From a virus, in IMG/VR virus record IMGVR_UViG_3300035703_000038, positions 37,245 to 101,244 of that record: a stretch of DNA of 64,000 nucleotides; one strand, written 5' to 3'. The notes below the pieces were generated by a model. The model saw only the letters and a list, made by a program, of their open reading frames with translations, had not been told where the DNA came from and made no database searches. Below, in pieces: positions 24,723 to 37,662 of this stretch (positions are counted from its first letter, which is position 1; each line of letters starts with the position of its first letter). A program made the position numbers and the translations under genes.

Positions 24723-27700
24723 ATGGCAGGCAAATTACCAGGTAGAGCGTTAGATCCAACAACAACAATAACGATTAATAATATATCGTTTGGGGATAAT
24801 GTTGCTGTTAATTCATCTGTCGTTGTCTTAGGCAACTCTACAGTTAATACTGTAGTTAACTCTACAGCAGTTGTCACACCATCAGTCAATGTTGGTTCTA
24901 ATGTTTTTGTCAACACAAGTACTATACATCTTGGCAACTCTACAGTCAACACTGTCATTCATACAACAGGCTTTACTGGTAATGGTGCTGGCTTACATAG
25001 TGTCAATGCTGCAGCACTAGAAGGGAACACCGTTGCCAATATTTTAACATCTGCCAACACTGCTGCTAATACTTTGGCATCTGCTGCGTTCACTAATGCA
25101 GCCTCTAGAGCCGACTCAGCATATTCCAATGCAGCATCATATGCTGACACAAAGGCTGGTCAAGCATTTACTAATGCTGTATCCTATGCTGCATCCAACA
25201 CATATGTCAATAATACATTCCTACCTCTTGCTGGTGGCACATTAACTGGCAATCTAACTGTCAATGCAACGGCTAATATTGTTTCTAACTTATCAGCTAA
25301 TAATGTTACATTTAGAGGTGATGTTCAGATTGATGGTAACTTAGTTGTATCTGGTACAAGTGTTACATTGAATGCTGCTAGCTTAGCTATTGAAGATAAT
25401 ATGATCTATTTAAATAATGGATCTCAAGTTACCCACCCCGATCTTGGCTTCGCTGGTAACTATAATGACGGCAGCTACAAGCACGCTGGCTTCTTTAGAG
25501 ATGCCACAGATGGCGTTTGGAAAGTATATGATGGATACACTCCAGAGCCAGATGCTTCTGCATATATTGATACAAGTAATGCCTCATTTAGAATTGCTGA
25601 TTTTACTGCCAACGTTGTAACAGCGGCAAGTATTAATGTTGTAAGTGGAGCATTAACAACTATTGCGGCAGGTAATACTACCATTACTGGTTTTGCTAAT
25701 GTAATAGGCGTAAGTAACACAGATGGTTTGAGAGTAGTAAGAAATGCTGGCGTTACGTCGCAGTATATAGAATTGAATACAAATGCTAGTGCAGCTTATG
25801 TTACCTTTAATTCTAGTGCTAGTAACCCTAAAGATGTTTATTATGATATACCACCAGCTAATAACACATCTGATATATTCCACATGTTTAGAGTTAGCGC
25901 TCTAGATAAACTTAAAGTCAATACTTCTGTTGTAACTGTAAATGCACAATTATCTGCTGGTAATACTACTATTACTGGTTTGGCTAATGTATCAGGCAAT
26001 GTAACAGTATCAGGTTCATACCTGTTTGTAGGTCAAGATGTAAGATCTAATGGTCAAATTAGAGCTACTGGTTGGTATAACACACCATCATCCTCCAGAG
26101 ATGGACCAGCCATCGAGATAGGTATATCAACCCACGGGTACATTCTATCATATGATAGAGACACATCAGCGTATGGTAGAATGTATTTCAACGCCAACAG
26201 CTTTTATATACAAACCCAAGGTACACAAGATGGTACCTATATTGGCAATAGTGGTTCAACCCATGCCTACTTTGCATCCAACGGTAATGTGGGTATTGGT
26301 AATACAAGTCCAATTGATAGATTAGTAATTAGTGATACTAATACAATTATAGTTAGACCTAATTTTGCTGGCACGACTGGAATTCCAGCTGGTGTACTGT
26401 TTGCTAGCAGAAATACCGCTAACTTAACATTTGCTGCTGACAGTTCCTCAGGGGCAGCTGGCCAAGGTATAAACATTTCTGCTTATGGTGGCAGCCAATG
26501 GTATCGTGGTCTAACATATAACAACAAATCTGGAACACCAGATCTCATATTACAACAGGATGGTGGTAATGTTGGTATTGGTAACACAGCTCCTGCAGAG
26601 AAGTTAGTAGTAAATGGTCTGACCAGGTTAGGAGGTAATGTTGTTATAACATCCGCTGGCACACAATGTAAAATAGATTTTGGTAGCGCAACCCAAACAC
26701 AATGGACTGATTTGATTCTTAAAACAGATACTGGAACAGGTGAAATTTTCCGTGGCGGTTCTGGTTATTCTTCATACACTGGAACAGCTGGCCTTAATAT
26801 TTTTAACAGTAACGGAGCTGCTGGTCACATTGGATTTTTCCCAGGCGGTACTTCATCGCCTGTGTTGTTAGCAGCAGCAAATGGCAATGTTGGTATTGGC
26901 GATTCTTCACCATCCACAAGATTCAGAGTATCAGGTGGTAGATCTGTCTTTGCAGCTAACAGCGAATTCTATTCTATTGCTGTTCAACACAACAGTGGTG
27001 GTGTTGGTCAATTCTATATTGGTGCCACAAACTCAGCTTCACCAGATATGCTTATTAGCCAAACTGGAGGAACTGAGGTTCTTCGTATTGGTGACAATGG
27101 TGGTTTGAGTCTTAACACTGGGGTATCATATAATAATAATTTCTTGATCAATGGTTATGCATCCATGATTAGGATGTACTCAGGGGCAGATGCAGTATTT
27201 GGCCACAATGTATATGGAGATCCTAATAGTAGAGTCCTGAAGCAAGTTAACACTGGCTACTATGCTTCATGGATTAGAATGTACTACAACCAAGGTATAT
27301 ATTTTGGTACAAGAAATGTAGCTGGTACAGTAGGCGATACCGTAAGCGATCCAGCTGGTACAACAAACGATAAGATGGTTCTTGATATTGACGGTCGTTT
27401 GATGCTGAATACAACAACAGCTAATACAACTGCTAATACAATATTAACAGTCAAGGGGTTTACATCCAACACATCAGCATTCATGATTGAAGGTCGTGAT
27501 AGCAATGGCATATTGAGAACTGCAATAACTGACCGTGGCGCCCAGAACTGGTACATTATGGCTGGCGATGGTTTAGAAAAAGGATCAATCCGATATAGTA
27601 CTCCTGGTGGCTTTGTTGGTATTCTATACTTTGATAGTTCTGGCCTATCTAGATCTGACTTTAGACATGTAGCCAATGGTGGCTTCACATGGCATGCCCA

Positions 27701-28055
27701 TGCTTTGGGTACAGTACCACCAGAATTGATGAGACTAGACAACACTGGCAACTTAACTATTGTTGGTACTCTAACTGAGTCTTCATCCATTACATTGAAA
27801 GAAAACTTAGATCCAATTCAAGATGCGTTAGGTGCAATTACATCACTTACTGGTTACGTCTATGATCGTAAGGATGGCACAGCTAAACGTAGAGCTGGTT
27901 TGATTGCTGAAGAAGTAGAAACAATATTACCTAATGTAGTTAAGAAAGACAATGATGGTAACCCAACTGGTATTCAGTATACTAACTTAATAGCATATCT
28001 TGTTGAGTCTATTAAAGAGCTTAAAGCTGAGATTGATTTGTTGAAGGGTAGGTAG
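24723..28055 (+). CDS. Long tail fibre with S74 chaperone domain
   Basis: An 1110-residue protein. It has the MAGKLPGRALDP anchor shared with the previous gene, VGNSTVNTV-type repeats (residues about 35-80), an Ala/Asn-rich helical stretch with regular small residues (about 100-165), then a GGTLTGNLTVNATANI segment and long fibre sequence with recurring NVGIGNTxP motifs (about 520, 620 and 720). The C-terminal ~100 residues are an S74 intramolecular chaperone (SSITLKENLDPIQDALGAI, AGLIAEEVETILPNVV, YTNLIAYLVESIKELKAEID). The catalytic pair is S1021 and K1026. Self-cleavage after trimerisation is expected from the family. It is probably a main long tail fibre. Confidence 0.85.
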   Translation: MAGKLPGRALDPTTTITINNISFGDNVAVNSSVVVLGNSTVNTVVNSTAVVTPSVNVGSNVFVNTSTIHLGNSTVNTVIHTTGFTGNGAGLHSVNAAALEGNTVANILTSANTAANTLASAAFTNAASRADSAYSNAASYADTKAGQAFTNAVSYAASNTYVNNTFLPLAGGTLTGNLTVNATANIVSNLSANNVTFRGDVQIDGNLVVSGTSVTLNAASLAIEDNMIYLNNGSQVTHPDLGFAGNYNDGSYKHAGFFRDATDGVWKVYDGYTPEPDASAYIDTSNASFRIADFTANVVTAASINVVSGALTTIAAGNTTITGFANVIGVSNTDGLRVVRNAGVTSQYIELNTNASAAYVTFNSSASNPKDVYYDIPPANNTSDIFHMFRVSALDKLKVNTSVVTVNAQLSAGNTTITGLANVSGNVTVSGSYLFVGQDVRSNGQIRATGWYNTPSSSRDGPAIEIGISTHGYILSYDRDTSAYGRMYFNANSFYIQTQGTQDGTYIGNSGSTHAYFASNGNVGIGNTSPIDRLVISDTNTIIVRPNFAGTTGIPAGVLFASRNTANLTFAADSSSGAAGQGINISAYGGSQWYRGLTYNNKSGTPDLILQQDGGNVGIGNTAPAEKLVVNGLTRLGGNVVITSAGTQCKIDFGSATQTQWTDLILKTDTGTGEIFRGGSGYSSYTGTAGLNIFNSNGAAGHIGFFPGGTSSPVLLAAANGNVGIGDSSPSTRFRVSGGRSVFAANSEFYSIAVQHNSGGVGQFYIGATNSASPDMLISQTGGTEVLRIGDNGGLSLNTGVSYNNNFLINGYASMIRMYSGADAVFGHNVYGDPNSRVLKQVNTGYYASWIRMYYNQGIYFGTRNVAGTVGDTVSDPAGTTNDKMVLDIDGRLMLNTTTANTTANTILTVKGFTSNTSAFMIEGRDSNGILRTAITDRGAQNWYIMAGDGLEKGSIRYSTPGGFVGILYFDSSGLSRSDFRHVANGGFTWHAHALGTVPPELMRLDNTGNLTIVGTLTESSSITLKENLDPIQDALGAITSLTGYVYDRKDGTAKRRAGLIAEEVETILPNVVKKDNDGNPTGIQYTNLIAYLVESIKELKAEIDLLKGR

Positions 28056-28056
28056 T

Positions 28057-28884
28057 ATGGCTATCCTAAAAAATACAACAATTAACGATACTGGTTTTAT
28101 TAGGCTGCCAGTTGGCAATACAGCTCAAAGACCAACTGCTGCCAATGGTATGATGAGGTATAACACTGATACAAGTAAAGTTGAAATTTATTTGGGTACA
28201 GCGTGGAGTTTATTAGATCTCACTGGCGACCCAACAGATGTGTATGCAGGAGCTGCAGTATACGCTCCGCTTTCAAATAGTGCAATATTCAGTAGTGGTT
28301 CATTGACCGGCAATACTGTTGAAATAGTCCAATATGGATCTTACGGTACAGATGAATCAAACACCTCCGTAACAGTTCTAAAGATGAGCGGTGGGGCCCA
28401 AACACGTATACCTGCTGGTGATCCAGGATCTGCTCATACAGTTTCCGTTTGGTATAGAAGTAGCAGCGGTAGTGATTACGGTATGCTATTTTCAAAATAT
28501 CCTTCAGTTGGTACAAGCAGCTATGGTGTTGATATATGGGATGGTAATGGAAATGGAGCTATCTATTTGAATACGGGTGATGGCTCAGCTAACCCGTTCT
28601 CTGGATCAAGTGGTCATTATTTTAACCACAGTGACTGGAGACATTATTGTTTCACATTTGATGGGTCAACAGCTAGATACTATAGAAATGGTAGTTTAGT
28701 AGGTGCTGCTCCTACATACAGAACATTTTCTGGATACACGGGGCAATGGACAATTGGCACCTGGTCAGGACAATATTTTGGTCAGTATACACTTTCAGCT
28801 GGTAGATTCAGAAAGTTTGCAGTATGGCATGGCAGCGCATTATCAGCAACAGATGTGACAGCTCTTTACAACGCAGGGCTATAG
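28057..28884 (+). CDS. Short fibre with LamG-like domain
   Basis: A 275-residue protein starting one base after the previous stop. Residues 1-50 (LKNTTINDTGFIRLPVG, QRPTAANGMMRYNTDTSKVE) are a short fibre anchor repeated in the next gene. Residues about 75-275 look like a single LamG/concanavalin A-like beta-sandwich (HTVSVWYRSSSGSDYG, DWRHYCFTFDGSTARYYRNG, RFRKFAVWHGSALSATDVTA). This is a likely carbohydrate-binding tip. It is the fourth lectin-like fold in the fibre array. Confidence 0.75.
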   Translation: MAILKNTTINDTGFIRLPVGNTAQRPTAANGMMRYNTDTSKVEIYLGTAWSLLDLTGDPTDVYAGAAVYAPLSNSAIFSSGSLTGNTVEIVQYGSYGTDESNTSVTVLKMSGGAQTRIPAGDPGSAHTVSVWYRSSSGSDYGMLFSKYPSVGTSSYGVDIWDGNGNGAIYLNTGDGSANPFSGSSGHYFNHSDWRHYCFTFDGSTARYYRNGSLVGAAPTYRTFSGYTGQWTIGTWSGQYFGQYTLSAGRFRKFAVWHGSALSATDVTALYNAGL

Positions 28885-28893
28885 GAGAATTAG

Positions 28894-29601
28894 GTGGGTA
28901 GTCTCAAAAACACAACAATCAATGATACAGGATTTCTACAGCTACCTGTTGGTACCACTGCTCAAAGACCAACTGCTGCCAACGGTATGATGAGATATAA
29001 TTCCAATACTGGACTTGCAGAAGTGTATGCTGGTGGAGCGTGGAAAGGCTTAGCTCTTGGAAGTGAGTATGAAACACTCAACTTTGTTGGTAACAATGGC
29101 AACCTGACAATTACTAACAATGGAACAACATCAGTTGATATTGCTAAAACTCAGGGTAGTAACAGTTGGGATACGCAAGCATATGTAGCGACAGGATATA
29201 CAGCACCCGTAACTATGGAATTTAATAAGTTAGCGGATTCTGGTGACAATGGTGCTTCATATGCAATGATATCATGGAACGCTGATCCAACAACGGATGC
29301 AAGCTACACTTCTCTTGATCATGCATCATACCCATTCATGCAAAATGCTTACCACGTATATAATAATGGATCCAACCCGTTAAACACTGGTGCATGGTCA
29401 TCAGCCAGCAAGTTCTACTTAGTATACGCTACAAACGGATTCATGTATCACTATAATGGATCAACATTATTGTATTCCGTAAACTATGGATCAGGCACTG
29501 TCTACCTCGACACCTCATTTTATGCAGTAAACGGAACTTTCAGTAAATTTTCAAATATCAGAGTTATTAAAAAGGCCTGGAATGGTACAGCATACACTTA
29601 A
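28894..29601 (+). CDS. Short fibre paralogue
   Basis: A 235-residue protein starting with GTG at 28894 after an AGGAGAATTAG ribosome site. The N-terminal ~45 residues (LKNTTINDTGFLQLPVG, QRPTAANGMMRYNSNTG) are nearly the same as in the preceding gene, but the C-terminal domain is different: Tyr/Asn/Ser-rich beta sequence (YATNGFMYHYNGSTLLYSVN) and no clear LamG signature, although a jelly-roll fold is plausible. This is a classic anchor-conserved, tip-swapped pair. Confidence 0.65.
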   Translation: MGSLKNTTINDTGFLQLPVGTTAQRPTAANGMMRYNSNTGLAEVYAGGAWKGLALGSEYETLNFVGNNGNLTITNNGTTSVDIAKTQGSNSWDTQAYVATGYTAPVTMEFNKLADSGDNGASYAMISWNADPTTDASYTSLDHASYPFMQNAYHVYNNGSNPLNTGAWSSASKFYLVYATNGFMYHYNGSTLLYSVNYGSGTVYLDTSFYAVNGTFSKFSNIRVIKKAWNGTAYT

Positions 29602-29945: not shown

Positions 29946-31052
29946 ATGGCAACAACAGCAAGAATAGCTAGAACGGATGTACCTGGTGCAGTCCCAAATG
30001 TAACTGATACCACAAACACATCCTACATTGAACCAGGTGCATTGTTCATCAATGTCACTGATCAAAAGCTATACTCCTCAAATGGCACGAACTATTTTCA
30101 GATTAGCGGTGTTGGTGGTGGAGGAGCTGCAAGCAACGTCTCTATCATTTCTCAGTCATTTGCTGGTAATGGCACAAACACTCAATTTACATTACCAGCT
30201 AATGGTACTACACAAACAACATTTGTATTCCTAAATGGTGTTGCCCAAGCCCCAACTACAGACTTTTCTGTATCTGGTCCAACTCTAACATTCATAACAG
30301 CTCCAACTGTCACTGATACTGTATCAGCACACATTGTTGATATTAGTAGCCCCAATGATGTTGAGTTTACGAGTAACTTCTTTACTGGTAATGGAACAAA
30401 CACTCAGTTTACGTTAGGGTCATCTCTGGCTGGCAATTCTTATGCCTTGGTGTTCCTAAATGGTGTTGCCCAGGTTCCTACTACAGATTTTGGTGTCACA
30501 GGAACAACTCTATCATTTACCACTGCTCCAGCTAATTTAGATAATATCCAGGTTGTTAGTGTTAATGCTGCCAATAACTTGGCTACAACAACATTTACTG
30601 GTAATGGTACTAACAGAGTATTCACATTAACTGACCCATCAACAACTAAAAAGACATTTGTTTATATTAATGGCGTTACCCAAGTTCCAATAAACGACTA
30701 CTATGTCACTGGTAAAACACTAACATTTGTGGTTGCTCCTGCCAATAATGATAATATTGTTGTTAGAACATTCTTTGAGAGGCTGGATGCAAGTGGTGGA
30801 AATACCCATATTCAGTTTAATGATTCAGGTGATATTGGAGCATCAGATGGGTTTACATTCAATAAAACAACCAATAATGTTACAGTAGCTAATACATTAT
30901 CTGTCGCCAACTTTAGATTTACAGCTTCTAATCCTCCAGGCTCAGCTAGTGATACAGGAGTAGCTGGTACAGTAACTTGGGATTCAAATTACATCTATAT
31001 TTGCGTGGCAACTAACACATGGAAGCGCGTCCAAATAGCAACTTGGCCATAG
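29946..31052 (+). CDS. Tail fibre with repeated FLNGVAQ modules
   Basis: A 368-residue protein. It has a major tropism determinant-type N-terminus (MATTARIARTDVPGAVPN, YIEPGALFINVTDQKLYSSN), a Gly linker, then three ~70-residue modules with NGTNTQFTL and (F/Y)(L/I)NGV(A/T)QVPxxD (about residues 75, 145 and 215). It ends with the GTVTWDSNYIYICVATNTWK motif common at fibre ends. These modules are close relatives of those in the giant fibre at 17619. Unlike the other fibres it has no separate lectin domain, so it may be a spacer or short fibre. Confidence 0.75.
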   Translation: MATTARIARTDVPGAVPNVTDTTNTSYIEPGALFINVTDQKLYSSNGTNYFQISGVGGGGAASNVSIISQSFAGNGTNTQFTLPANGTTQTTFVFLNGVAQAPTTDFSVSGPTLTFITAPTVTDTVSAHIVDISSPNDVEFTSNFFTGNGTNTQFTLGSSLAGNSYALVFLNGVAQVPTTDFGVTGTTLSFTTAPANLDNIQVVSVNAANNLATTTFTGNGTNRVFTLTDPSTTKKTFVYINGVTQVPINDYYVTGKTLTFVVAPANNDNIVVRTFFERLDASGGNTHIQFNDSGDIGASDGFTFNKTTNNVTVANTLSVANFRFTASNPPGSASDTGVAGTVTWDSNYIYICVATNTWKRVQIATWP

Positions 31053-31308: not shown

Positions 31309-34300
31309 ATGCCAGGTAAATTATTCTTCAATGACAACGGCACTCTAAGAGAAGCCGAAATCCTAAAGGTTAACGATGGCGGTATTCTCCGTAGCATTAG
31401 AGATGCCTATGTTAACCAAAATGGAACATTGAGACAGATTTTCTCTGCAACAAGAGAAACATCATTTGAAACTTCTCGTACAACTGTATTTGATACGGCA
31501 ATCACAACAACATTTGATACAACAATTGCTACAAGTAAGAGCACTACAACTGCATTTGTTACAATCTTTGATACTGGTTATGATACAAGCAAATCTACAG
31601 CAACAAACAGAAGTACAGCAACAAGTAGATCTACAGCCTATGCTACAACAAGATCTACAACTACAGTATTTTTAACCAACACTGTATTTGAAACAACAAT
31701 TGGTACAAATAGAACCACAAGCACATCTAGATCTACTACTACAGCATTTGACACCAATACTGTATTTGAAACAACTATCGACACAAATAGAGTAACGGAT
31801 ACAAGTAGATCAACAACTACAGTATTTGATACCAACACTGTATTTGATACAACAATTAACACAAATAGAAATACAGCAACAAGTAGACTAACTGATTCTG
31901 TATTTGATACTGTTGTAACAACAAATAGATCAACTCTCTCTGTATTCAATACATCAACTGTATTTGACACAACAACAGCATTTGAAACATCTTACGCCAC
32001 AACAACTATATTCAGTACAACATCTACGTTTGATACTGTTATTGATACATCAAAGAATACAGCAACTACAAAATCTACTACAACAGCATTTGACACTGGC
32101 TACGACACAAGTAGATCCACTCTTTCTACATTTGACACATCGACAGTATTCCAGACAACTACTGTATTCAATACACTAAGTGTATTTGATACAACAATTG
32201 GAACAAGCAAGTCAACAGATACAAGTAGATCAACAACTACTGCATTTGAAACAGCCTATGCAACAAATAGATCTACAATAACAACAAAGAATACTACAAC
32301 TACTTTTGATACTGTTATCAATACTACCAGAGCAACTGATACATCTCGTGGTACTACAACTGTATTCCAAACAACAACTACATTTGATACAACTATTGGA
32401 ACAACAAGAGCTACTGATACAAGTAGAGCAACAACTACTGTATTCCAGACAACTACTACATTTGCCACAACAACAACATTTATTACAACACAAGGTGGTA
32501 CAACTGTATTCCAGACAACAACAACGTTTGCAACAACATTCTACTTCAATACATCTAGACAAACAACATCAACGTTTATTACAACGTTGGGTGGTACAAC
32601 AACATTTAATACTACAACAACGTTTGGTACAACATTCTACTTCAACACAAGTAGATCTACTACATTCTACTTCAATACCAGCGTTGCTACAACGTCAACA
32701 TTTATTACATCAGCTGGTGGCATAACAACATTTATTACTACTGCTGTAGCTGGTACAAGTAGAGGAACATCAGCTGGTGGTATCACTACATTCATCACTA
32801 CAGCAGTTGGTGGTACAAGTAGAGCAACAACATTCTACTTTATTACTACATTTGGTACTTCACTGGGTGGTAATACAACATTTGCCACAACATTCTACTT
32901 CAACACAAGTAGAGGAACATCAGCTGGTGGTATCACTACATTCATCACTACAGCAGTTGGTGGTACAAGTAGAGCAACAACATTCTACTTTATTACTACA
33001 TTTGGTACATCCGCTGTTGGTGGTACAAGTAGAGCAACAACATTCTACTTCAACACAAGTAGATCTACTACATTCTACTTCAACACATCAGTTCAAACAT
33101 TCACTGTTGTAGCTGTTAATTATTATAAAGGTATTCCTATACCTTACTACATCCAAACCGCTACTACATTTGGTACAGCAGCTGGCGGTATTACAACATT
33201 TATTACTACAGTTGGTGGCATTACCAGCTTCAACACGACATTCTACTTCAATACAACTCGGGCAACTTCGGCCGGCGGTAATACAGCATTTAATACTACA
33301 TTCTATTTCAACACAAGTAGAGCAACAACATTCTACTTTATTACAACGTTCATTACTACTGCTGTTAATAATACAAGTAGAGCAACAACATTCTACTTTA
33401 ATACATCACGTGGTACATCAGCTGGTGGCATTACCAGCTTCAACACTACATTCTACTTTAACACAAGTAGAGCAACAACATTCTACTTTATTACAACGTT
33501 CAACACAACATTTTACTTCAATACAAGTAAAGCAACAACATTCTACTTCAATACATCAGTAATTACTACAACAACATTCATTACAACACTTGGTGGTATT
33601 ACAACGTTTATTACAACACTTGGTGGTACAACATCTAGAGCAACTGCAACAAGTAGGGGTACTACTTTTTACTTTAACACATCTGTTATTACATCAACAA
33701 CATTCATTACAAGTGCTGTTAACAACACATCTAGAGCAACAGATACAAGTAGATCAACCACGTTTTACTTCAATACAAGTAGATCAACAGACACAACTAG
33801 AGCAACAGACACAAGCAGAGCAACAACTACTGTATTTCAAACAACAACTGCATTTGAAACATCATACGCTACAAATAGAGCAACTGACACGTCACGTGGT
33901 ACAACCACTGTATTTCAAACAACAACGACGTTTGAAACTGCTTATGCTACAAATAGAACAACATCTACATCATCAACAACCACAACAACGTTTGACACCG
34001 TAATTGGCACAAGTAGGTCAACAACATCTGTATTCCAAACAACTACAGCATTTGAAACATCATATGTTACAAACATTTTAACAGCAACTAGTGCTGCTAC
34101 TGATACAACAAGAGTTACAGAAACTAGTAGAAACACAACGACTGCTTTCAATACCTTAGTTGCAACAAGTAAGTCAACTACATCTACATTTGACACATCA
34201 ACAGCATATGAAACAGCATATGCCACAACAAGAGTAACTGATACAAGTAGATCAACTGATACAACAATTGACACAAGTAGAACAACTGCTACTGATAGAA

Positions 34301-34818
34301 CAACAGCTACCAATAGAAATACTACTACAGTATTTGAAACTGCTTATGCTACAAATATTGCAACTTCAACAGTATTTGATACTGTAACAACATTTGAAAC
34401 ATCATACGCTACAGGTAGAAACACATCTACAAGCAGATCTACGACGTCTGTCTTTGGTACAACAACAACGTTTGAAACAACATATGATACAAATATTGAT
34501 ACAGGAACAAGTAGAACAACAACTTCTGCGTTCAATACTGTAACAGCGTTTGAAACAACATATGATACTAACATTGATACAACAACAAGCAGATCCACAA
34601 CATCTACATTTGATACAGAAATTGTAACAACGTTTGATACTGTAACTATCTTTGATACAACAACAGCTTACGATTCTCAGTATGCTACAAACCGTAGCAC
34701 AAGTAGATCAACAACATCTACATTTGAAACTGCTTACGAGACAAGCCGTAACACAGCTTACAACACTTCCCAGAACACAGCTTATATTACAACATTTGAA
34801 ACCTACATTAATACCTAA
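31309..34818 (+). CDS. Giant Thr/Ser/Phe repeat protein (candidate fibre)
   Basis: A 1169-residue protein. Residues 1-47 are ordinary (MPGKLFFNDNGTLREAEI, RSIRDAYVNQNGTLRQIF) and look like a short virion-attachment domain. Nearly all the rest uses Thr, Ser, Phe, Arg/Lys, Asn, Asp, Val and Tyr in short repeats. The flanks use units such as TSRSTTTVFDT and TVFETTIDTNR. The centre (about residues 400-810) uses TTFYFNTSRA and GGITTFITTAV units of about ten residues. One non-repetitive stretch (about 594-618) contains VVAVNYYKGIPIPYYI. There is no Cys, signal peptide or membrane segment. The regular spacing of aromatic and Thr residues fits a beta-solenoid or beta-spike stacked over many turns; this is inference. 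Its place after the fibre genes suggests a fibre or adhesin. Confidence 0.65.
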   Translation: MPGKLFFNDNGTLREAEILKVNDGGILRSIRDAYVNQNGTLRQIFSATRETSFETSRTTVFDTAITTTFDTTIATSKSTTTAFVTIFDTGYDTSKSTATNRSTATSRSTAYATTRSTTTVFLTNTVFETTIGTNRTTSTSRSTTTAFDTNTVFETTIDTNRVTDTSRSTTTVFDTNTVFDTTINTNRNTATSRLTDSVFDTVVTTNRSTLSVFNTSTVFDTTTAFETSYATTTIFSTTSTFDTVIDTSKNTATTKSTTTAFDTGYDTSRSTLSTFDTSTVFQTTTVFNTLSVFDTTIGTSKSTDTSRSTTTAFETAYATNRSTITTKNTTTTFDTVINTTRATDTSRGTTTVFQTTTTFDTTIGTTRATDTSRATTTVFQTTTTFATTTTFITTQGGTTVFQTTTTFATTFYFNTSRQTTSTFITTLGGTTTFNTTTTFGTTFYFNTSRSTTFYFNTSVATTSTFITSAGGITTFITTAVAGTSRGTSAGGITTFITTAVGGTSRATTFYFITTFGTSLGGNTTFATTFYFNTSRGTSAGGITTFITTAVGGTSRATTFYFITTFGTSAVGGTSRATTFYFNTSRSTTFYFNTSVQTFTVVAVNYYKGIPIPYYIQTATTFGTAAGGITTFITTVGGITSFNTTFYFNTTRATSAGGNTAFNTTFYFNTSRATTFYFITTFITTAVNNTSRATTFYFNTSRGTSAGGITSFNTTFYFNTSRATTFYFITTFNTTFYFNTSKATTFYFNTSVITTTTFITTLGGITTFITTLGGTTSRATATSRGTTFYFNTSVITSTTFITSAVNNTSRATDTSRSTTFYFNTSRSTDTTRATDTSRATTTVFQTTTAFETSYATNRATDTSRGTTTVFQTTTTFETAYATNRTTSTSSTTTTTFDTVIGTSRSTTSVFQTTTAFETSYVTNILTATSAATDTTRVTETSRNTTTAFNTLVATSKSTTSTFDTSTAYETAYATTRVTDTSRSTDTTIDTSRTTATDRTTATNRNTTTVFETAYATNIATSTVFDTVTTFETSYATGRNTSTSRSTTSVFGTTTTFETTYDTNIDTGTSRTTTSAFNTVTAFETTYDTNIDTTTSRSTTSTFDTEIVTTFDTVTIFDTTTAYDSQYATNRSTSRSTTSTFETAYETSRNTAYNTSQNTAYITTFETYINT
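32755..32858 (+). repeat. 104-bp direct repeat, copy 1
   Basis: This stretch is identical by eye to 32905-33008, both in the same reading frame of the Thr-rich repeat gene, with a 150-bp period. Confidence 0.85.
32905..33008 (+). repeat. 104-bp direct repeat, copy 2
   Basis: This is the second copy of the exact repeat at 32755-32858. The 150-bp period is a multiple of three, so gain or loss of a copy by recombination would keep the reading frame. Confidence 0.85.
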
Positions 34819-35008: not shown

Positions 35009-35995
35009 ATGGTAGCTGAAGTCCCTGGTAAGGGTGGGAAGACTAAGTTCTTCACCATGTCCTCTAACGAGTGGGTAAATGATCCTGTAACCCACTTTAT
35101 GAAATCTGGCAATATGTTGAGATCTCCAGCCAACGATAGGCTATCAGAGATTGCTAATCTTATTCCTAAGAACCCAAATGGTTCTAAGATCGAGTATGAT
35201 ATTAACTACGGTAGTCCTAAAGACACCATTGCTGGTTACAAATATACTGACCTTCTAACACAGATGATCTATATGGCACCTTGCAACACAAGCATTGCCA
35301 CTAAGAATATTATCGAGTGTATCAGAAAGGGTATTACACCAGAAGGCCAAAGAATTACAGAGGCCCTGATAGCTAACCTAACAGACAAATACCTACTAGA
35401 TGAAGATCTAGATCTAGAGTATGGTGATGTAAATGAATTAGTGCTCCTCCCAGGTACTAACTTGATTGTTAAAGATGCAGTTGACTTTGAAAAAGTTGAC
35501 AACCTATTTGCCAACGGTGCTTGGGTGAAGTTACATCCAATCACTGCAAAGGTTTGGCAGACGATGCTTGAGAACAAATATAAAGGCAGAGTTGTTAAGA
35601 ATGATGCCTCAATGTATCCTATCCTAAAGCGCTGTAAGAAAGTCAACTTCACTCTATCGTCTGAGACTGGTTGTGCTGCTGTTCTATTAGGTAAGGGCAT
35701 TGGCTTAATCGACAATAAAGAAGCTAAGGTTGGCAAGACGTTTGAAGCAATCTATATGGCTCTAGATAAGTGTGGAGTTAAGGATAAGCTAATCAATAAG
35801 TTTGCTGCAATCATGTCACATCCTGAATCTGGTTTGATTACTGTTCACCATGAAAACAAACAAGAGTGTATCAATAGATTCTTCAATAACATGAAGCAAT
35901 ATAAACATATTACACTGAGTAAGAAGCCAGGTGAAGAAGGTGATCATGTTATTGAGCAAGAGTTGAAAGCACAAGGTGGGATTAGACAAGTATGA
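35009..35995 (+). CDS. Unknown protein with glycosyltransferase-like motif
   Basis: A 328-residue soluble protein. I do not recognise the whole chain. The segment WVKLHPITAKVW (about residue 170), followed about 40 residues later by NFTLSSETGCAAVLLGKGIG, resembles the 'K-HP ... SS-x-G-x-EA-x-x-GK' pattern of GT-B-type glycosyltransferases such as capsule-synthesis enzymes, but the acidic residue after the Gly is replaced by Ala. Its stop overlaps the start of the next gene (ATGA), so the two are probably partners. Lying between fibre and neck genes, it could modify virion proteins, DNA or host glycans; this is inference. Confidence 0.45.
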   Translation: MVAEVPGKGGKTKFFTMSSNEWVNDPVTHFMKSGNMLRSPANDRLSEIANLIPKNPNGSKIEYDINYGSPKDTIAGYKYTDLLTQMIYMAPCNTSIATKNIIECIRKGITPEGQRITEALIANLTDKYLLDEDLDLEYGDVNELVLLPGTNLIVKDAVDFEKVDNLFANGAWVKLHPITAKVWQTMLENKYKGRVVKNDASMYPILKRCKKVNFTLSSETGCAAVLLGKGIGLIDNKEAKVGKTFEAIYMALDKCGVKDKLINKFAAIMSHPESGLITVHHENKQECINRFFNNMKQYKHITLSKKPGEEGDHVIEQELKAQGGIRQV

Positions 35996-36885
35996 AAACC
36001 TTTGTAATTGCACAACACCATGGTGTGTTCCTTACTCTAAAGTCCATGCATGACTGTGGTATAGATGATATAGTTGTCATTGTACCAGGTGGGCAGGTGG
36101 AGAAATACAATAAGATGTATTCTGAAAAACCTGAAGATCCTGAGTACCAGGCATTTCAAAACTACGACAAAAGGATCAAAGAGTTTATTCAGAATAATAA
36201 TATCCAAGCTGAAGTGTTTGTTTATGATGGCTTTGATATTAGAAACACTGTTAGCTCAGCTCTGAGATTTGTTGATGCCTATGGGTGTAGAGAGATTGTA
36301 GCATGCCTACTATCAGGTACAATTGTTATTAAAGATTATAGAGATAACATTAAAGAGCAGCTGCTGATGAAAGAGATTGGTGCATGCTCTTCTAGAGTGT
36401 ATCAGAACCATAATCAGCTATCAATGTACCATATGATTGGATTGCCACAAATTGATAAGTCATTGGATGTTAATTTCTTTGCAGCTGACATGACTAAAAT
36501 TAGGCCAGCTCAGCTTGAGATGGATGATAGCAATCTTCTAAATGATGCTACTAAAAGAAAGCAACTTGCCCATATGTCTAGAGAGTTCAATGGTAAGGAT
36601 GACCCTCTAATTGGTACTGCTATTTCAGCTAGACAGACAATTGCTCATAATCTTAGAATCCAGGCTGGCTTCATTGTTAATCTATGGAATAAGTCAATTA
36701 AAGGTTCCGGCCAGTTAAAATCAGAAGAGTTATTTGGCTATCCATTTAACTATTATAGCAAATATGTTAGAGAAGTAGGCAGCTATCTACCAAAATCCAC
36801 AGTTAATAAGATAATTAATAATGGCGAAGAGACAGAAAAGTGGACAGGCGGTCTATATGATTGTCTGGATATAATTGATCTATAA
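35992..36885 (+). CDS. Unknown protein, probable partner of preceding gene
   Basis: A 297-residue protein. The first 130 residues alternate strand and helix (MKTFVIAQHHGVFLTLKSMH, DIVVIVPGG, EVFVYDGFD, EIVACLLSGTIVIK) and look like a Rossmann-type nucleotide- or sugar-nucleotide-binding half. The rest is helical, with KRKQLAHMSREFNGKDDPLI and a C-terminal EKWTGGLYDCLDIIDL. No catalytic motif was recognised. Its 4-nt overlap with the preceding gene suggests coupled translation and joint function. A late-promoter box overlaps its stop codon. Confidence 0.45.
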   Translation: MKTFVIAQHHGVFLTLKSMHDCGIDDIVVIVPGGQVEKYNKMYSEKPEDPEYQAFQNYDKRIKEFIQNNNIQAEVFVYDGFDIRNTVSSALRFVDAYGCREIVACLLSGTIVIKDYRDNIKEQLLMKEIGACSSRVYQNHNQLSMYHMIGLPQIDKSLDVNFFAADMTKIRPAQLEMDDSNLLNDATKRKQLAHMSREFNGKDDPLIGTAISARQTIAHNLRIQAGFIVNLWNKSIKGSGQLKSEELFGYPFNYYSKYVREVGSYLPKSTVNKIINNGEETEKWTGGLYDCLDIIDL

Positions 36886-36921: not shown

Positions 36922-37662
36922 ATGGCAGTTCCAACAACCAGAGCTACTTTTAAAGAATATTGCCTTCGTAAACTTGGTAAGCCAGTTATTGAAATCAATG
37001 TGGATGATGACCAAGTGGAAGATCGTATTGATGAATCTTTAAGATATTATTGGGATTACCACTTCGATGGTGCCGAGAAATTATACTATAAGCACCAGAT
37101 TACATCAAATGATAAGACAAACAAGTATATAACCTTACCGGAAAATATCATCGGTGCGGTGAAGATATTCCCAGTTGGTCAAAGCATCAATACGATGAAT
37201 TTGTTTAACATTCGATACCAAATTGCATTGAATGATCTTTACACGTTGACCACTCAGTCAATGATTCCATATGTGATGGCAATGCAGCATATTCAGTTCC
37301 TAGAAGAAGTTTTAGTTGGCCAAAAACCAATCCGTTATAACAGACATAAGAATAGATTGTTTGTTGATATGGATTGGGATTTGGCTGTCGAAGGCGAATT
37401 CCTAGTTGTAGAGGCTTATGAAGTTGTGGACCCTGACACATTTGCTGATGTTTGGTCAGATCGTTGGTTAGCCCTTTATACAACAGCACAGATTAAGTAT
37501 CAGTGGGGTACAAACCTAACCAAGTTCACTGGTATGGTTCTTCCAGGTGGTGTTCAGTTCAATGGCGAGAAGATTCTAGATGATGCTAAGGCAGAAATTG
37601 AAGCACTGGAACAAGAAATGCAGACGTCCTATACATTACCAGCTTACCATATGGTAGGATAA
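36922..37662 (+). CDS. 13: gp13-like neck protein
   Basis: A 246-residue protein. The start (TTRATFKEYCLRKLGKPVIE, followed by VEDRIDESLRYYWDYHFDG) is the characteristic opening of T4-like gp13 neck (head completion) proteins. The family forms the connector ring under the portal together with gp14 and seals the filled head for tail joining. It is shorter than T4 gp13 (309 residues), as is usual in marine relatives. The stop is followed one base later by the gp14 GTG start, so translation is probably coupled. Confidence 0.9.
   Translation: MAVPTTRATFKEYCLRKLGKPVIEINVDDDQVEDRIDESLRYYWDYHFDGAEKLYYKHQITSNDKTNKYITLPENIIGAVKIFPVGQSINTMNLFNIRYQIALNDLYTLTTQSMIPYVMAMQHIQFLEEVLVGQKPIRYNRHKNRLFVDMDWDLAVEGEFLVVEAYEVVDPDTFADVWSDRWLALYTTAQIKYQWGTNLTKFTGMVLPGGVQFNGEKILDDAKAEIEALEQEMQTSYTLPAYHMVG

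Follow-up and report, generated by a model that had tools for sequence, protein, structure and literature searches.

Many trimeric phage fibres carry Peptidase_S74 as a C-terminal chaperone. In the crystal structure of the needle of T4 gp37, each chain goes out to the tip and returns, giving six antiparallel strands. This needle (D10-D11) of the T4 long tail fibre is a slender trimer with a receptor-binding tip and with coordinated irons arranged lengthwise (PMC6957217, PMC3004832). In a window of 64,000 nucleotides (the whole stretch of DNA analysed here), which belongs to an IMG/VR virus record of 101,244 bases, we found a gene for a 1169-aa protein that is, in our judgment, very likely a tail fibre formed as a giant in-register antiparallel β-hairpin with an adhesin at its tip, probably trimeric. 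While the gp37 needle is ~15 nm long and binds its metal through His, the protein described here has arms of 546 residues and, having no His, lacks the His-x-His metal motifs of the needle. The Thr:Thr and aromatic:Arg code described below also sets the 1169-aa protein apart from gp37, and a sequence relation to gp37 is undetectable; the complementarity about a central tip nevertheless fits the out-and-back chain of gp37, judging from the sequence alone. Compared with the S74 fibres, the shaft would be a self-complementary hairpin instead of a known fold, and the 1169-aa protein has no S74 match, although an S74 domain ends one protein of the same superfamily (protein A of contig L291).

AAY80_265 of Stenotrophomonas phage DLP_6 (1288 aa, annotated as a baseplate wedge subunit) is the sole protein of a cultured phage that our filtered searches found with the same pairing code. 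It has a wedge-type N-terminus, with a wedge Pfam score slightly below the cutoff, followed by a hairpin (848-947/1002-1101) that is shorter than that of the 1169-aa protein, contains an extra inserted domain, and is fused to the wedge. The portion of the DLP_6 publication searched for fibre terms does not mention this feature (PMC5349666).

The gene and its parts are listed in Table 1, with the start, stop, and length that had been given in a preliminary description of this DNA. The N-terminal domain consists of the repeats NDNGTLRxA.., VNDGGILRxVRD, and VNxNGTLRQI, is conserved in the IMG/VR relatives, and is presumed to anchor the protein to the virion. The remaining 1122 residues (48-1169) are composed of 37% Thr, 10% Ser, 10% Phe, 7% Ala, 5% Asn, and 5% Arg, that is, 47% Thr plus Ser, with an entropy of 3.17 bits per residue; His, Cys, and Trp are absent from the protein as a whole, which contains three Pro. 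This agrees with the normal start of 47 residues and the low-complexity Thr/Ser/Phe remainder that the preliminary description had noticed, while its units of 9-14 residues were an incomplete account of what are mostly words of 4 or 6 residues that start with Thr. As that description had also held, no known domain is recognizable: the protein matched nothing in Pfam, PHROGs, or the PDB sequences, and the PHROGs and Pfam profiles place it in no known phage tail fibre family. Neither the 1169-aa protein nor its N-terminal domain had a tblastn match among 50,697 phage records, in searches whose low-complexity filter partly masks the arms, so that similar proteins may well occur in further cultured phages; a related N-terminal domain gave a weak match at best in the phage records.

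Table 1. Coordinates in the window, with residue numbers of the 1169-aa protein, and contigs with split gene pairs.
Feature	Coordinates	Strand	Remarks
Putative hairpin fibre gene, self-complementary	31309..34818	+	1169 aa; ATG start
N-terminal domain, residues 1-47	31309..31449	+	three repeats of ~15-20 residues; putative virion anchor
Out-arm, residues 55-600	31471..33108	+	gapless pairing with 616-1161, score 517
Tip loop, residues 601-615, VAVNYYKGIPIPYYI	33109..33153	+	within Thr/Ser-poor stretch
Return arm, residues 616-1161	33154..34791	+	read backwards, the pairing-code complement of 55-600
Two conserved genes 3' of the fibre gene	35009..36885	+	35009-35995 and 35992-36885; associated, outside the fibre proper
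Split pairs, own partner best			L185, L192, L210, L222, L226/L287, L258, L277, L288, L291

The neck gene gp13 (36922-37662), whose best matches are DLP_6 (70%) and, in Caulobacter, phage Cr30 (58%), places the virus among the T4-like myoviruses. The fibre gene is located between a tail-fibre-like ORF (29946-31052) and gp13, an order that is the same in the relatives, and it thus lies in a fibre/baseplate block beside structural genes, as expected of a phage tail fibre. We infer a fibre function for this gene from its position and its relatives. Further upstream, a 1110-aa fibre-like protein (24723-28055) has a C-terminus, SSITLKENLDPIQDAL...GLIAEEVETILPNVV, that resembles a Peptidase_S74 chaperone by eye, and the two consecutive genes at 28057-28884, which encodes a Laminin_G_3/ConA-like domain, and 28894-29601 have an N-terminal module of 50 residues in common. 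In the stretches examined of Cr30, phiM12, and HTVC008M, a comparable Thr-rich protein was absent.

The two downstream genes of Table 1 are found between the fibre gene and gp13 in the relatives (L001-L008) and are also present in DLP_6. The first of them, 190 nt downstream of the fibre gene, had been called glycosyltransferase-like; it is at most a candidate for such an enzyme, with no Pfam glycosyltransferase match. It belongs to phrog_26179, a PHROG with no assigned function, is 73-85% identical in the relatives, and gave an AlphaFold2 model (pLDDT 41) too poor for judging the fold. DLP_6 has an unrelated large protein at the place of the fibre, yet it retains this gene. At the two ends of the DLP_6 record KU682439 (L013:45818-48490 and L009:1-1663), long unannotated frames with Ig-like repeats and a possible Hint-like C-terminus occupy the position of the fibre gene of the window.

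The repeat part has a strict two-residue register. Counted at odd and even positions of residues 48-1169, Phe occurs 108:1, Arg/Lys 66:0, and Asp/Asn/Glu/Gln 4:130, and the autocorrelation of Phe and Arg is at its floor value at all odd lags up to 44. Thr and Phe recur with periods of ~5, 10, and 20 residues. Because the words are mostly of 4 or 6 residues with Thr first, the distances are even; the chain is written in dipeptides grouped into words. Over 1100 residues no odd-length insertion has been kept. Such kept parity would be demanded by a continuous extended strand, whereas loops or solenoid turns would not demand it.

Antiparallel self-complementarity was measured by a G-test for every sum s = i + j, that is, the association of residue classes at i and s-i conditional on parity. 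The 1169-aa protein showed a single peak at s = 1214 (0-based; i + j = 1216 when counted from 1), with a z of 40.7, 19 SD over the mean of 1821 sums. A local scan with the learned code joined the two arms of Table 1 by 546 pairs with no gap and a score of 517, against 89 for the second diagonal. In the strongest control, the order of the words was shuffled in 60 trials; the best score then averaged 29 and never exceeded 41. A coarse test for mirrored composition in bins of 30 residues gave no clear outcome, and the residue-level scan was decisive. Beyond the N-terminal domain there is only one stretch poor in Thr and Ser, and it lies near the midpoint.

The pairs at the peak follow a simple rule. 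At the odd positions of six proteins, T:T was observed 790 times (448 expected), F:R plus R:F 264 times (49 expected), and I:Y plus Y:I 78 times (5 expected), while T:F plus F:T was almost barred (7 against 291 expected) and F:F was under-represented (9 against 47 expected); Phe is also paired with Gly, Ala, Val, Leu, Ile, or Lys. In other words, Thr/Ser pairs with Thr/Ser, or exactly one aromatic residue is opposed to Arg, Lys, Gly, Ala, or an aliphatic residue. Among the 276 odd pairs of the 1169-aa protein, 149 are Thr/Ser:Thr/Ser, 123 contain exactly one aromatic, and 1 is mixed (137 expected). The protein accordingly has both features by which we recognize the hairpin superfamily, namely one dominant antiparallel sum and the combination of Thr:Thr with aromatic:non-aromatic pairs.

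Five complete IMG/VR homologues of 662-1319 aa each gave one peak of the same type near their own midpoint (z 19-44), indicating that the arms are nearly equal whatever the total length; two of the relatives, L004 and L006, have an additional tail of 57 residues. The tip differs among the relatives, and related proteins hold 54-227 residues in the loop.

A second hairpin protein, of 2275 aa, is encoded in the same record upstream of the window (L028 7332-14156). Although it was left out of the learning of the code, its arms (95-529/757-1191) pair in a single register around a loop of 227 residues that is mainly Gly_rich_2; this domain thus lies exactly in the hairpin loop, where the 1169-aa protein has an aromatic tip of 15 residues. 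Parity holds to the end of the return arm at about residue 1225 and then shifts, and a second, shorter hairpin follows (1330-1430/1475-1575). The region 1225-2275 as a whole comprises about a thousand Thr-rich residues with several parity switches and this one shorter hairpin. Related proteins of two other contigs, L061 and L116, have different loops. In L028 (7200-7440), the TGA of a baseplate-wedge ORF overlaps the start codon (ATG/GTG) of the second hairpin protein, and in three phages (L028, L061, and L116) this overlap occurs at a conserved GGTGGGGC[AG]TGAG. The overlap splits an apparently single folded domain, which looks like translational coupling or a frameshift that would yield a wedge-fibre fusion as in DLP_6. 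In L032 and L033, the hairpin likewise stands behind a wedge-type N-terminus. The code therefore finds hairpins outside its training set, in the 2275-aa protein, DLP_6, L061, L032, and L033.

The superfamily includes dozens of marine viral proteins. Scanning DNA for a 7-residue word yielded mostly chance matches, while a pattern of 13 residues (two successive words) was specific and matched more than 119 stretches of viral contigs, along with 11 stretches from genomes of bacteria and archaea. Among the matches listed, 68 of 121 unique Thr-rich ORFs scored >40 and 40 scored >100, as against none of the 121 scoring >40 with shuffled words; the size of the superfamily is a lower bound, and some of the 121 ORFs are relatives of the 1169-aa protein itself. 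Scans free of the code gave top peaks with z of 5.5-38 in 19 members, the weakest of which (L242) is marginal. Many members have a similar N-terminal domain of three repeats (MAIYVNDSGTLRQISFLAVNDSGTLRRVNEVYVNDSG), and several include a fused baseplate wedge. Like the 1169-aa protein, the members had no significant match in PHROGs. A scaffold of the SAR92 clade bacterium H921 (L296:214-3342) encodes a Thr-rich protein in which 269-471/647-849 give a hairpin signal, either in a prophage or as a bacterial gene.

In related phages of the ocean, many Thr-rich ORFs with no internal hairpin turned out to be pairs of neighbouring genes whose two products form complementary partners in antiparallel orientation. 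In L291, residues 23-499 of protein A pair with residues 8-484 of protein B. In an 11 × 11 matrix of A and B proteins, each A found its highest score with the B from the same contig (Table 1), L226 and L287 having one B in common. Two additional pairs, L216 and L220, scored weakly (42 and 49). Free of the code, the antiparallel z values of the split systems were 8-32 and those of the parallel controls 2-9, except for L263, whose two proteins are strongly similar in parallel and which is weaker evidence than the other pairs. By its sequence, A looks like an out-arm plus tip and B like a return arm, and pairing of the arms between chains is indicated for these systems. The identity of the superfamily as fibres is supported by the S74 domain of L291 A and by the baseplate wedge fused to the hairpin in L255, both above the Pfam cutoff.

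We aligned the homologues by the out-arm alone and examined the opposite residues for covariation. Where the class of the out-arm residue had changed, the return-arm class had changed in 229 of 243 cases (94%), a proportion that misaligned words could inflate and that should be read alongside the within-protein statistics; the rule was kept on both sides in 221. With the out-arm class unchanged, the return arm had changed in 103 of 2920. DNA inverted repeats between the arms were merely short and imperfect, and DNA rearrangement cannot reverse a protein sequence, from which we conclude that the pattern was selected at the protein level. It is hardly conceivable that DNA repeat expansion by duplication, inverted duplication, or slippage, with no selection for pairing, produced the mirror pattern as a side effect: low complexity and recurring words would suit such an origin, but no inverted repeat beyond those short, partial ones joins the arms, the match between them is complementary (F:R, Y:I) and not identical, and its score was never reached by the word-shuffled controls. 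We would give next to no credence to a disordered, O-glycosylated Thr/Ser-rich linker or shield either. The Thr and Ser content of the repeat part and a candidate, unconfirmed sugar-related gene nearby would be in keeping with it, but Pro is almost absent, Phe, Tyr, Ile, and Val are high, parity is strict with pairwise covariation, and the nearby gene matches no glycosyltransferase family. Composition and covariation argue against a disordered, mucin-like chain, and nothing was found to support the O-glycosylation of Thr and Ser suggested in the preliminary description.

The same description had favoured a β-structured fibre or adhesin with Thr ladders, in which we concur, and a stacked repeat, which we abandon because the register evidence points to what is probably one long antiparallel hairpin. 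A β-solenoid or another stacked repeat, with ladders of Thr and Phe along its axis, could account for the periodicities and for the 6-8-residue strands of a low-confidence AlphaFold2 model of the tip region (281 aa, 7 sequences; pLDDT 39.9), which gives the hairpin no support. We nevertheless regard it as very unlikely, since the turns of a solenoid can absorb changes of odd length, whereas parity here is preserved over 1100 residues, and since the complementarity of i and s-i over the 546 pairs and the covariation would be left unexplained; the irregular words of 4 and 6 residues also differ from the near-constant coil length and tolerated loops of solenoids. An antiparallel homodimer, in which two full chains would lie head to tail with residue i opposite 1216-i of the other chain, predicts the identical peak at constant i + j, and pairing between chains is indicated in the split systems. 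Such a dimer is improbable in that the centre of the protein is a non-repeat tip, where relatives have 54-227 residues including a glycine-rich domain, as a hairpin loop would, and in that the N-terminal anchor or baseplate wedge would occupy both ends. What also counts against the hairpin is that the Arg and Lys residues of the coded face are without acidic partners there, so that either face may be the buried one.

In the hairpin architecture that we propose, the chain would leave the virion at the N-terminal domain, run outward for ~546 residues in an extended, strictly alternating β conformation, turn at the short aromatic tip, and return for 546 residues in exact register. The odd residues would form one face, with Thr/Ser opposite Thr/Ser and Phe/Tyr opposite Arg/Lys, Gly, Ala, or an aliphatic residue. 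The irregular order of the 4- and 6-residue words and the choice of the arm that bears the aromatic residue would constitute a register code, which may let a low-complexity chain of 1100 residues close in one way only. The tip, which varies among relatives and is elsewhere replaced by whole domains, is the presumed receptor-binding site. On the model of T4 gp37, several copies, probably three (six strands), may bundle into the fibre, and the S74 chaperone of the related split protein likewise suggests trimers. From the arm length at ~0.33 nm per residue, the fibre would be at most ~180 nm long when fully extended and shorter if twisted. The computations show the parity of the chain, its antiparallel complementarity at the level of residues, the covariation, the mirrored lengths of the arms, and the complementarity between proteins; the β geometry, the oligomeric state, the location on the virion, and receptor binding by the tip are inferences.

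An adhesive fibre would be a role of a known kind, and the novelty would lie in the architecture and in the complementarity between genes. We know of no precedent for either, and in the part of the open-licence literature that was searched, the motifs occurred in no paper and such a fibre in no title or abstract found. We think it likely that phages have evolved a heritable code of residue pairing between β-strands, akin in its logic to nucleic-acid complementarity, in which an aperiodic sequence with about three types of pairs specifies a unique register over hundreds of pairs, either within one chain (hairpins with swappable tips) or between two proteins, and coevolves by compensatory change. 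If this is true, viral fibres would have a shaft architecture of a new kind, and nature would offer a case of strand recognition through a simple, readable, aperiodic pair code, including recognition between two gene products. A low-complexity protein, passed over by annotation pipelines, would become a fibre of predictable length and tip, candidate receptor-binding tips could be located by sequence alone in many uncultured marine phages, and the superfamily would provide a natural data set for the rules of β-strand pairing.
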